Shown here: one piece after another, positions 2,385-6,127 of the stretch
How positions within the stretch are numbered: position 1 is the first letter of the stretch
Layout: each line of letters begins with the position of its first letter
Assembly (NCBI GenBank): GCA_031267895.1
Contig: JAIRYF010000042.1
Coordinates: 1 to 32,349 of the forward strand
Source of the DNA: Candidatus Methanoplasma glyptotermitis
GTDB taxonomy: Archaea; Thermoplasmatota; Thermoplasmata; Methanomassiliicoccales; Methanomethylophilaceae
Reading direction: 5' to 3'
Length of the DNA: 32,349 nt
Program-made: the position numbers and the translations under genes
Notes under the pieces: model-generated
The model's database searches: none
What the model saw: only the letters and a program-made list of their open reading frames with translations
What the model was told of the DNA's origin: nothing

Positions 2385-2825
2385 ATGGATAAACTGACTC
2401 CCGAACAGCGCCGCAGAAATATGCAGGCTATCAAATCGAAGGACACAAAAATTGAAATCATCCTGAGAAATGAACTTTGGAAAAGGGGCCTGAGATATAG
2501 GAAGAACTGCAAAGACCTTCCAGGGCACCCAGATATAGTGTTCATGAGATCCAAATTAGCAGTCTTCTGCGACTCAGAATTCTGGCACGGATATGACTGG
2601 AGCAACAGAAAAGACAACATCCGCACAAACAAAGAGTTTTGGATCAGAAAAATAGAATACAACATGCGACACGATGAAGAAATAAACCAGAAATTAACTG
2701 GGCTTGGGTACACTGTAGTAAGATTCTGGGGGAATGAAATAACTAAAAACCCAGAGATATGCGCCGATAAGATAGAAGAACTTCTGAATCGTGCGACCGC
2801 TCGTTCCAGCAACCTCATTATATAA
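2385..2825 (+). CDS. vsr: Vsr-like very-short-patch repair endonuclease lacking the zinc ligands
   Basis: Vsr enzymes nick next to T:G mismatches left by deamination of 5-methylcytosine, protecting hosts of C5 methyltransferases. The 146-residue product keeps the family layout: NMQAIKSKDTK near the N-terminus, LPGHPDIVF with the metal-binding Asp50 (E. coli Asp51), and FWHGYDW with His68 (E. coli catalytic His69). The E. coli structural zinc ligands Cys66, His71 and Cys73 correspond here to Glu65, Tyr70 and Trp72, so this is a shorter zinc-free variant. The ATG at 2385 was chosen because it begins the conserved region; a TATA-like AGTATAACC at 2354-2362 would give a near-leaderless transcript. 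The endonuclease gene follows 25 bp downstream on the same strand, and two C5 methyltransferases lie just beyond. Confidence 0.85.
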   Translation: MDKLTPEQRRRNMQAIKSKDTKIEIILRNELWKRGLRYRKNCKDLPGHPDIVFMRSKLAVFCDSEFWHGYDWSNRKDNIRTNKEFWIRKIEYNMRHDEEINQKLTGLGYTVVRFWGNEITKNPEICADKIEELLNRATARSSNLII

Positions 2826-2850
2826 ATGTCTGCACCGCTATGCAAGTGGC

Positions 2851-3645
2851 ATGAACATCGGGGAGAAGGGCGAACTTCTCGTCAAAATAAGATTCACCGA
2901 GATGCGTGACAGGAACGAGATTTTCAACGGATAGGCCATAATGAGCGTAGGGTTTTGGAAGGAATACAAATCCGCCCCTGACATCTTCACCGAAACCATG
3001 ACAGTCGATAGTAACTGGTCTGAAAGTAAAATCATGGAAATCGCAGGAGAAATGCTGATTGAAAAAGCGCCCGTCTCCTGCAAAAGCGATGTATACATCA
3101 ACGGGAATGGTTACTCTCTGAAGTCAACATATGGGGCAAACTCGGCACTTGTCAACCACACCAACAGAATAGGGTTCGAGAGAGTATGCCGTGAGACGGG
3201 GGCTGACATTGCAGTATTGGATTCAATCATCGATAACTATTGGAAACTAAGAGAGTCTGGAGACATCAGAGAAGATGTTTCCAACTCTGATCCCGCATCC
3301 CCGTTCCAAGGCTATAAGGAGTATTTCAGGCCGATCCTAGAATACTTCCTGTTCGTTGGTTCTGGTTCGCGCAGATCCAAGAATCCTGCGGATTACATCC
3401 TGGAGTTCGGCGACCCGTTCGATAACACGAAGTGGAAAATAATCACGAAACGGGAAGCCATTGACGTGTTCTGGCCCAAACTTGTTTTCAGCATGCGTTC
3501 CAAAAAAGGAATGCCTCCCAACTATGACCTGGATTACCGTGGACCAGATGCCTCCAGTATCGCAAAATGGGTAAGAAACTGCCGCGGAGAATACAAAGGG
3601 GCATTGCACATCAGGGTGGCTGAGGGTCGAAGACGCCGGTACTGA
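2851..3645 (+). CDS. Probable type II restriction endonuclease, interrupted by in-frame TAG at codon 28
   Basis: Reading from ATG 2851, 27 residues (MNIGEKGELLVKIRFTEMRD...) precede an in-frame TAG at 2932-2934, after which the same frame continues without a stop to TGA at 3645, 264 sense or amber codons in all. A conventional call would start at ATG 2941 and give 234 residues. The upstream part looks coding and starts with a GEKGE motif of the kind found at the N-termini of several restriction enzymes. A PD-(D/E)XK-like core is visible as Asp80 (KSDVYING) and SLK with Lys91, followed by GANSALVNHTNR. Position between vsr and two C5 methyltransferases makes a restriction role likely; I cannot name the specificity. 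The amber codon may be decoded as pyrrolysine, bypassed by reinitiation at 2941, or be an inactivating mutation. The 3' end overlaps the convergent methyltransferase gene by 35 bp. Confidence 0.65.
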
Positions 3646-4465
3646 CGAGTGCCTTTCCCAATTCTCTTACTATCGTTGTCGGAACGGAGTTCCCTATCTG
3701 TCTGTACTTATCGGCGGAGTTTCCTGCAAGATAATGACTGGACGGAAATCCCTGCAACTGAAGACATTCCTCTGGAGTAATATAGTGTATTGACCCGTCG
3801 ACCGTGTAGCAGTCCCAATTGAATTTGTTGTCAATCCCAGAGTGCCTGCCACCGACACGAACCGTGAACCCATATTCTCTTTCGGTTTTCCCTTTCAGGA
3901 TGTCTGAGAGTTTTAACGCACATCCCGTAGGTTCAGGGAATGAAAAATCAACATCAAGGTCATCACGGAATCCGATGATGAAAAGTCTTTTCCGTATCTG
4001 CGGTACGCCGTAATCCTTTGCTTCCAGGATCATGTGGTACACTGTATATCCCGAAGAGGTAAGCTCTTCAAGCATTCTTGAGAAGATCGTGCCTTTGTTG
4101 ATTGTCATGAGGCCTTTGACATTCTCCAGAATGAACGCTTTCGGACGTTTATCTCGGAGTATCCGCGCCACCTGGAATATCAGAGTTCCACGTGAATCCT
4201 CCAAACCGCCCTTTTGGCCGATGTTGCTGAATGGCTGACAGGGGAACCCGCCACACAGAACATCGAAGTCGGGTATATCTTCAGATATGATTTCACAAAC
4301 ATCTCCTCGGGGAACAATCCCGAAATTCCTGGTGTATGATTCGACGGTGACAGGATCGATGTCACTTGCCATGACGCATCTGCCTCCGCACTGCAACAGA
4401 CCGTGGTGGAATCCTCCAATCCCAGAGAACAGATCAATGAACGTGAATTTGGGATGTTTTTCCAT
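3611..4465 (-). CDS. C5-cytosine DNA methyltransferase (second of pair)
   Basis: Transfers a methyl group from SAM to C5 of cytosine, protecting host sites from the island's endonuclease. The 284-residue protein has motif I FTFIDLFSGIGGF at its N-terminus, the catalytic Cys76 in GGFPCQPFS (motif IV), ENV at 114-116 (motif VI), an RKRLFIIGF segment and a C-terminal YRQIGNSVP (motif X). The stretch between motifs VIII and IX is short, so its target recognition domain is small and unlike that of its neighbour. Its ATG directly follows the TGA of the upstream methyltransferase (TGAATG), implying translational coupling. It is convergent with the endonuclease gene and overlaps it by 35 bp. Confidence 0.93.
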   Translation of the reverse strand: MEKHPKFTFIDLFSGIGGFHHGLLQCGGRCVMASDIDPVTVESYTRNFGIVPRGDVCEIISEDIPDFDVLCGGFPCQPFSNIGQKGGLEDSRGTLIFQVARILRDKRPKAFILENVKGLMTINKGTIFSRMLEELTSSGYTVYHMILEAKDYGVPQIRKRLFIIGFRDDLDVDFSFPEPTGCALKLSDILKGKTEREYGFTVRVGGRHSGIDNKFNWDCYTVDGSIHYITPEECLQLQGFPSSHYLAGNSADKYRQIGNSVPTTIVRELGKALVSTGVFDPQPP

Positions 4466-5545
4466 TCATGCCCACTCTTCGATTGCCTTGCGCACGACTA
4501 CATGCTGGGGCTCTACCTCGCCTTCCAACACACGCTTTATCTGCTCTGCTATAGCGCGTATCACCGGCACCGACACGCTGTTGCCCAGCTGTTTGTATGT
4601 ATGGACATCGGCCAGCGGGAAATTATACGAATCTGGGAATCCCTGCAGTCTTGCCCACTCTCTCGGTGTCATTTTGCGTATCCCTTCTCTGTTAACTTTG
4701 CCCTTTATGTGCGTTACAGGTGTGAAATCTGCCAGACGGTCATCACATACCAGATTGCGTTCTTTCCCCATCCCGCCGCATACGATGGCTCCCGCAATCC
4801 CGTCAAGATTTCTTATAACATATCCGAAACCGTTGCCTTTGGCCTCGTGTCTCGCTTTGTGTTTCTTCAGTGTCTCCATGTAAACGTCGCTTATGTAGTA
4901 CTTAACCGACGGAGTCTCTTTTTCGAGTATGTCCCTCAAACAGATTCCAGTGTCAGATCCTGATGGGAACGTGAATCCCGAACTCTCGACATCATTCCTG
5001 AAAGCTACAATGTAAATTCTTTCTCTGTTCTGCGGAACTCCGAAATCCTTGCTGTTCAGGACTTTGCAGTATACTCTGTATCCCAGCTGTTCCAGTGTTT
5101 CCCTGATCACCCTAAACGTTTTTCCTTTGTCATGTATTGTTAGGCCTTTCACGTTCTCGCAGAATATTACTTTGGGCTTATGTTCGGCACATATCCTTAC
5201 AACATCAAAGAACAATGTTCCGCGGCATCTTCCCTTGAAATCATCATTGAACCCCTGCTTCTGGCCTGCGATGGAAAATGCCTGACAGGGGAATCCCGCA
5301 AGACAGATATCAAAGGGAGGTATTTCCTCCTCATCTACCTGGGCGATGTCGCCAGCGATGTCAAATTGGTCTGAATGGTTTGCTCTGTAGGTCTGTTGAG
5401 CATACAAATCCCATTCGCATACGAAATCAGTCCTGATATCGTCCCCGAATGCCTGATCAAAGCCCATGCGTATTCCGCCGATTCCAGCAAACAGATCTAT
5501 AGATCTGTAGAGTGTCTTGCCGCTTTCATTATCCAATTTATACAC
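4466..5545 (-). CDS. C5-cytosine DNA methyltransferase (first of pair)
   Basis: A 359-residue C5 methyltransferase with motif I RSIDLFAGIGGIR, catalytic Cys87 in AGFPCQAFS, ENV at 130-132, QNRERIYIV, and motif X YKQLGNSVSVPV. The segment KHKARHEAKGNGFGY...GGMGKERNLV and the following GIRKMTPREWARLQGFPDSY are like methyltransferases of the HpaII/Dcm-type group, but specificity cannot be read off by eye. The start is a GTG at 5545 preceded by GGGAGA; no ATG exists upstream of motif I. A TATA-like GATTATTAAAC on the minus strand near 5580-5591 could drive both methyltransferase genes. Two different m5C enzymes beside one endonuclease suggest an asymmetric site, or a redundant pair as in the ScrFI system. 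Confidence 0.93.
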   Translation of the reverse strand: MYKLDNESGKTLYRSIDLFAGIGGIRMGFDQAFGDDIRTDFVCEWDLYAQQTYRANHSDQFDIAGDIAQVDEEEIPPFDICLAGFPCQAFSIAGQKQGFNDDFKGRCRGTLFFDVVRICAEHKPKVIFCENVKGLTIHDKGKTFRVIRETLEQLGYRVYCKVLNSKDFGVPQNRERIYIVAFRNDVESSGFTFPSGSDTGICLRDILEKETPSVKYYISDVYMETLKKHKARHEAKGNGFGYVIRNLDGIAGAIVCGGMGKERNLVCDDRLADFTPVTHIKGKVNREGIRKMTPREWARLQGFPDSYNFPLADVHTYKQLGNSVSVPVIRAIAEQIKRVLEGEVEPQHVVVRKAIEEWA

Positions 5546-5749: not shown

Positions 5750-5977
5750 CGAGTTTGACACTTACACAATCTGACTGATACAGCTTTCGCTGGGAAATGT
5801 GCGTTTTGCATTGGGTTACCGCGTTCTCAGTTATCCCGACCTCGACATTTCACAGTTTGAAATTAGGTCATAACCTGAGTTCGACAGTTGATTTTCATTC
5901 CTGAGAAAATTTTACAGGAGAGCTTACGCTGATGATCAGGCTGCGGGAGTTCTCATTTTGCTGATGTTCCCAGGGTC
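5750..5977. repeat. Right inverted copy of the island-bracketing repeat, split by a 129-bp insertion
   Basis: Segments 5750-5792 and 5922-5977 together correspond to the reverse complement of 2227-2315. They are separated by 129 bp, and the 10-mer GCTTTCGCTG (5783-5792) recurs as GCTTACGCTG (5922-5931) at the other side of the gap, as expected for an insertion or a rearrangement between related element ends. The second segment overlaps the MITE-like element listed separately. Confidence 0.8.
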
Positions 5978-6127
5978 TGAAGGGGGGGGGGCTGAAAGCC
6001 CCCTTCAGACACCAGAAACACCGGCAGAAAGAGGTCATGAATTCCTCCGAATGCAGCGTAAGCTCTCCCGAACATCAACTGTCAAATTTTCCCAATAACG
6101 AAATCAACTGTTGAGGTCAGGTTATGA
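5868..6127. mobile_element. MITE-like 260-bp element with ~49-bp imperfect terminal inverted repeats
   Basis: Left end 5868-5917 and the reverse complement of right end 6079-6127 share TCATAACCTGA, then TC(G/A)ACAGTTGATTT, then GAAAATTT(T/G)ACAG in the same order, with a variable 10-nt patch between. There is no ORF inside. The core contains a strong hairpin: TCTGAAGGGGG (5976-5986) pairs with CCCCCTTCAGA (5999-6009) and includes a run of ten G. I see no clear target duplication. Together with the split repeat it fills the 604-bp gap between the methyltransferase and the ATPase gene. Confidence 0.7.

Follow-up and report, generated by a model that had tools for sequence, protein, structure and literature searches.

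Organization of the restriction-modification island

The stretch of DNA analysed here, referred to as the window, comprises 32,349 nucleotides of a contig of Candidatus Methanoplasma glyptotermitis. Close to its beginning lie the genes and features listed below.

2385..2825, plus strand: vsr, very-short-patch mismatch endonuclease (Pfam Vsr, 3e-29; NCBIfam TIGR00632, above cut-off)
2818..2827, plus strand: TATA-like box, possible leaderless start, tentative (sequence and upstream-pattern scan)
2851..3645, plus strand: R, predicted Type II restriction endonuclease, 264 codons through the TAG (alignment with four full-length homologues beginning at residue 1, linked methyltransferases, HinP1I fold match with E 0.07)
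2932..2934, plus strand: TAG, in-frame codon 28, predicted pyrrolysine codon (frame, alignment, genome TAG census)
3611..4465, minus strand: M2, cytosine-5 DNA methyltransferase (Pfam PF00145, 4e-79)
4466..5545, minus strand: M1, cytosine-5 DNA methyltransferase (Pfam PF00145, 7e-95)

Translation bears out the claim of an earlier sequence-only reading that ATG 2851 and TGA 3645 delimit a single frame of 264 codons, the sole internal stop of which is the TAG at codon 28 (2932-2934, as given by a 72-contig draft assembly). M2 is convergent with R and overlaps its 3′ end by 35 bases. The same reading had described an island of vsr, an endonuclease and two methyltransferases, which agrees with the family matches of vsr, M1 and M2 and with the recurrence of their linkage in relatives.

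The island was likely acquired horizontally. The codon-usage score of R, 0.124 per codon, lies under the lower quartile of the host genome (0.144), the GC content of vsr is 42% vs 49.7% in the genome sample, and a transposase gene is found beside the island. Inverted repeats flank the vsr-R-M2-M1 block at 2218-2315 and 5750-5986, matching over 66 bases at 92% and over 43 bases at 95%, and belong to a family that recurs on numerous further contigs of the host. Such repeats were possibly the route of insertion.

Relatives and probable identity of R

Four full-length relatives of R, 43-49% identical to it, were found on viral contigs (L073, L083, L084 and L085), and in all of them the homology spans the whole protein from residue 1, across the TAG. 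The first was reached by scanning the viral contigs with M2, and the alignment of R with this L073 homologue (259 residues, 49% identical, E 3e-72) then gave the other three. When the R protein alone served as query, no match was obtained in genome contigs, viral contigs, plasmids or phages by a pattern method that requires near-identical peptides. Likewise, R was not found in any other of 147 genomes of the host order, nor in 390 drawn from the host phylum. Weak phylum-wide matches (best E 6.6e-4) were rejected, as they covered short parts, mostly of larger frames, and were unsupported by a profile of the five sequences.

Cytosine-5 methyltransferase genes adjoin R in all five loci, that is, in the window and in its four viral-contig relatives. 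The L073 locus is arranged as the window is, with M1 followed by an M2 that is 61% identical to that of the window and likewise convergent with the R homologue; the L084 locus also carries M1, M2 and Vsr, and the L085 locus carries Vsr. Since these methyltransferases stand beside every R homologue, R would be the endonuclease of the island. Genes of 327-376 residues directly adjoin the R homologues of three loci (L073:4347-5330, L084:6783-7913 and L085:6720-7727); they gave no confident family match where scanned, and the window has no counterpart of them. A further locus, L076:4187-6726, holds the closest M1 relative found (71%), located after a vsr gene (61%) and before a different endonuclease-like gene, for which tblastn showed no relation to R. 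As vsr and M1 stand there beside an unrelated endonuclease-like gene, this part of the island may be shuffled between systems.

R had no match in Pfam, NCBIfam, PADLOC, PHROG or the sequences of the PDB, so the endonuclease label needed another test. A structure predicted from the single sequence was useless (pLDDT 36), and the AlphaFold2 model built from the five-sequence alignment reached a pLDDT of 82.8; in it, residues 3-20 are helical and residue 28 comes after this helix, within short strands and turns. The best fold match in the PDB is HinP1I, a restriction enzyme of similar length and of the PD-(D/E)XK type; the match is weak (Foldseek E 0.07, TM about 0.34, identity 12%), and the cleavage specificity of HinP1I is not transferable to R. 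The invariant residues K78, D80, S89 and K91 form a KxD...SxK pattern, presumably PD-(D/E)XK-like. The label is based on the methyltransferase linkage in all five loci, this motif and the weak HinP1I match, and the best reading of R is that of a Type II restriction endonuclease whose family is uncurated, being new to the protein-family libraries searched. In such a system, R would cut unmodified DNA, M1 and M2 would shield the DNA of the host, and the repair of deaminated 5-methylcytosine would fall to Vsr.

The amber codon and the start of R

Both sides of the TAG have coding character, as the sequence-only reading had stated. With a codon-usage score trained on the host genome, codons 1-27 obtain +8.8 in their own frame, compared to +0.4 and -13.7 in the alternative forward frames, and none of the reverse frames is positive; the part downstream of the TAG obtains +23.9. 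As the upstream segment is thus coding, the TAG interrupts one gene. Homology leads to the same picture. R and its four relatives have in common the motif MNxGExxELLxK, 5′ of the TAG, and the five-way alignment is invariant at M1, N2, G4, E5, E8, L10 and R19 before the TAG and, after it, at K78, D80, S89, K91, N102 and H103. The conservation that the earlier reading had looked for in residues 1-27 is therefore present, but it does not extend to the TAG column itself, which is occupied by Met, Val or Glu in the homologues, the segment being absent from L085. Residue 28 differs from the pyrrolysine of methylamine methyltransferases in that its position is not conserved, and none of the four homologues provides a second case of a TAG.

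Standard annotation would be expected to call R from ATG 2941, which opens a stop-free frame of 234 codons, and the TAG would then sit in untranslated sequence. It is extremely unlikely that this is the real start: the N-terminal segment is present in all four homologues, none of which begins at a counterpart of Met 2941, its residues 1-27 are both conserved and coding by score, and residues 3-20 are modelled as a helix, so that a protein starting at Met 2941 would lose the conserved GExxE helix. In addition, the TATA-like box lies 24-33 bases 5′ of ATG 2851, while the upstream-pattern scan found none ahead of ATG 2941; in the host genome, boxes of this kind show a mild enrichment 25-30 bases 5′ of ATGs (9 vs about 4 per 6-base bin). 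Translation of R most likely starts at ATG 2851.

Predicted pyrrolysine decoding and TAG usage in the host

The host possesses the genes for synthesis and use of pyrrolysine. On contig C35, pylS scored above the profile cut-off, pylB, pylC and pylD were recognised downstream of it by position and sequence (the domain match of pylC is weak), and a tRNA with the anticodon CUA (pylT), read by eye, lies directly upstream. This tRNA was missed by ARAGORN, and the sole Rfam match, to an unrelated family, was below threshold. The methylamine methyltransferase genes mtmB (two copies), mtbB and mttB contain one TAG apiece. The pyl genes which the sequence-only reading had proposed to look for are thus present, and neither a lack of homology before residue 31 nor homologues starting at Met 2941, the other observations that it had named as contrary to its view, were encountered.

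A census of TAG was made on 959 kb, corresponding to 56% of the genome, with gene ends taken from table-11 prediction. Among the 779 gene ends, TGA was used in 576, TAA in 187 and TAG in 16, although TAG accounts for 10,063 of the 60,757 stop triplets counted in all frames of the same sample. Moreover, 12 of the 16 TAG gene ends appear internal to longer genes, namely both copies of mtmB, mtbB, mttB, purH, a bacterial-type aspS, a BspA-type repeat protein gene, porC, two paralogues with a Cys-rich end and two unnamed genes, and at most four of the 779 predicted genes (0.5%) may be truly terminated by TAG. An additional in-frame TAG, beyond these 12, is found in trpF. Of 63 frames with an internal TAG, most are mere 5′ extensions of frames and were left out of the count. 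A separate tally of stops with coding sequence on both sides was only mildly informative, as adjacent in-frame genes inflate the figure for TGA. Positions of TAG-bearing genes are as follows.

L133:2033-3673, plus strand: purH with in-frame TAG
L112:2535-4355, plus strand: bacterial-type aspS with in-frame TAG
L106:3072-3689, minus strand: trpF with in-frame TAG
L146:7483-8019, minus strand: porC with in-frame TAG
L138:11695-12186 and L141:2639-3088: paralogue pair with TAG at codon 80 in both

purH is present in a single copy in the genome and has its TAG within the AICARFT domain, and 23 of 25 relatives have no stop at this place, the remaining two giving no match. The two paralogues are 90% identical beyond their common TAG and differ there by an indel of two codons, which leaves the frame intact; they have a Cys-rich, zinc-ribbon-like end and showed no family match. 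The TAG-bearing aspS encodes the second AspRS of the genome, and an argument from its essentiality was dropped because a stop-free AspRS of the archaeal type is encoded at G000:C29:5442-6710.

Since few genes end in TAG and most of these ends are internal to longer genes, TAG is very probably, in essence, a pyrrolysine sense codon in this host. Decoding appears general because TAG terminates about 0.5% of genes at most and occurs within housekeeping genes such as purH. The complete pyl cassette, the rarity of terminal TAG and its presence inside housekeeping genes all agree with the decodability of TAG that the earlier reading had proposed.

Origin and meaning of the amber codon

From the frame of R, the homology across its TAG, the pyl genes and the near-absence of TAG stops, we infer an intact Type II endonuclease with pyrrolysine at position 28, made by general decoding in a probably horizontally acquired island, and consider this reading to have a probability of about 0.8. 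The tRNA-Pyl(CUA) would let the ribosome place pyrrolysine at codon 28 and, with UAG handled as a general sense codon, run on to TGA 3645, giving an enzyme of 264 residues. Neutral fixation probably accounts for the codon itself, as a genome of this kind tolerates a newly arisen TAG.

The plainer explanation offered by the sequence-only reading, a recent nonsense mutation, would mean that UAG mostly terminates, that the nuclease is dead and that the methyltransferases are left solitary. It is in accordance with the ordinary residues that homologues have at the TAG position and with R being unique to the host among the genomes searched, and a competition between release factor and Pyl-tRNA at UAG is assumed in the literature (PMC9499178). 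Still, we regard it as unlikely, because UAG almost never ends genes here, being found even within the single-copy purH, and because R, apart from the TAG, is without lesion across its 264 codons and has kept the family-invariant residues on either side.

Competition with the release factor could also act in another way, as scarcer Pyl-tRNA would yield less full-length nuclease (PMC9499178), and in a cell able to decode UAG the output of the nuclease could be deliberately tied to the supply of pyrrolysine and so to methylamine availability. This coupling, suggested by the sequence-only reading for a toxic nuclease, is not supported by our data and seems very improbable: the codon of R is one among a dozen or more, housekeeping genes included, its site is variable in the R family, and no other member has a TAG. 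A PYLIS-type stem-loop was not found just 3′ of the UAG, the RNA there folding no better than shuffles (z = 0.76), although such a stem-loop is dispensable for pyrrolysine insertion (PMC9499178).

It is also conceivable, but improbable, that the island is mobile and its amber codon confines the full endonuclease to pyrrolysine-decoding hosts, while the methyltransferases can be made anywhere. If true, transfer beyond the lineage would bring modification without restriction, and the system would be bound to recoded hosts.

Comparison with known systems

The use of TAG in the host resembles the archaeal "Pyl code" reportedly described in 2025, where every TAG codon is said to be sense. In the host, too, TAG hardly ever serves as a stop and occurs within many genes; on the other hand, it is known here from sequence, and 4 of the 779 predicted gene ends may remain TAG. 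A tRNA-His guanylyltransferase with pyrrolysine in Methanosarcina (Heinemann et al. 2009, as cited in PMC3639795) resembles R in having an amber codon in a non-methyltransferase gene, ascribed to neutral evolution, whereas it is a different protein and the pyrrolysine of R is predicted.

Closer counterparts are found among defence nucleases of the Methanomassiliicoccales, the order to which the gene content of the host points. In 'Ca. Methanomethylophilus alvus', where TAG stops amount to 1.6%, 16 extra Pyl proteins are predicted, including Cas1 (PMC4153887), and ISO4-H5 has 46 amber genes, including Cas3 (PMC5011839). Like R, Cas1 and Cas3 are defence nucleases with an in-frame amber codon in a pylTSBCD genome where TAG stops are scarce, and they have amber-free homologues. 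They are, however, CRISPR genes, while R sits in a restriction-modification island, a setting for which the literature searched contained no case of a pyrrolysine-containing restriction endonuclease. With R, the few defence proteins predicted to contain pyrrolysine would come to include a restriction endonuclease. The host has nearly abandoned UAG for termination, and for this reason standard annotation would wrongly present R, and a dozen or more further genes, in truncated form.
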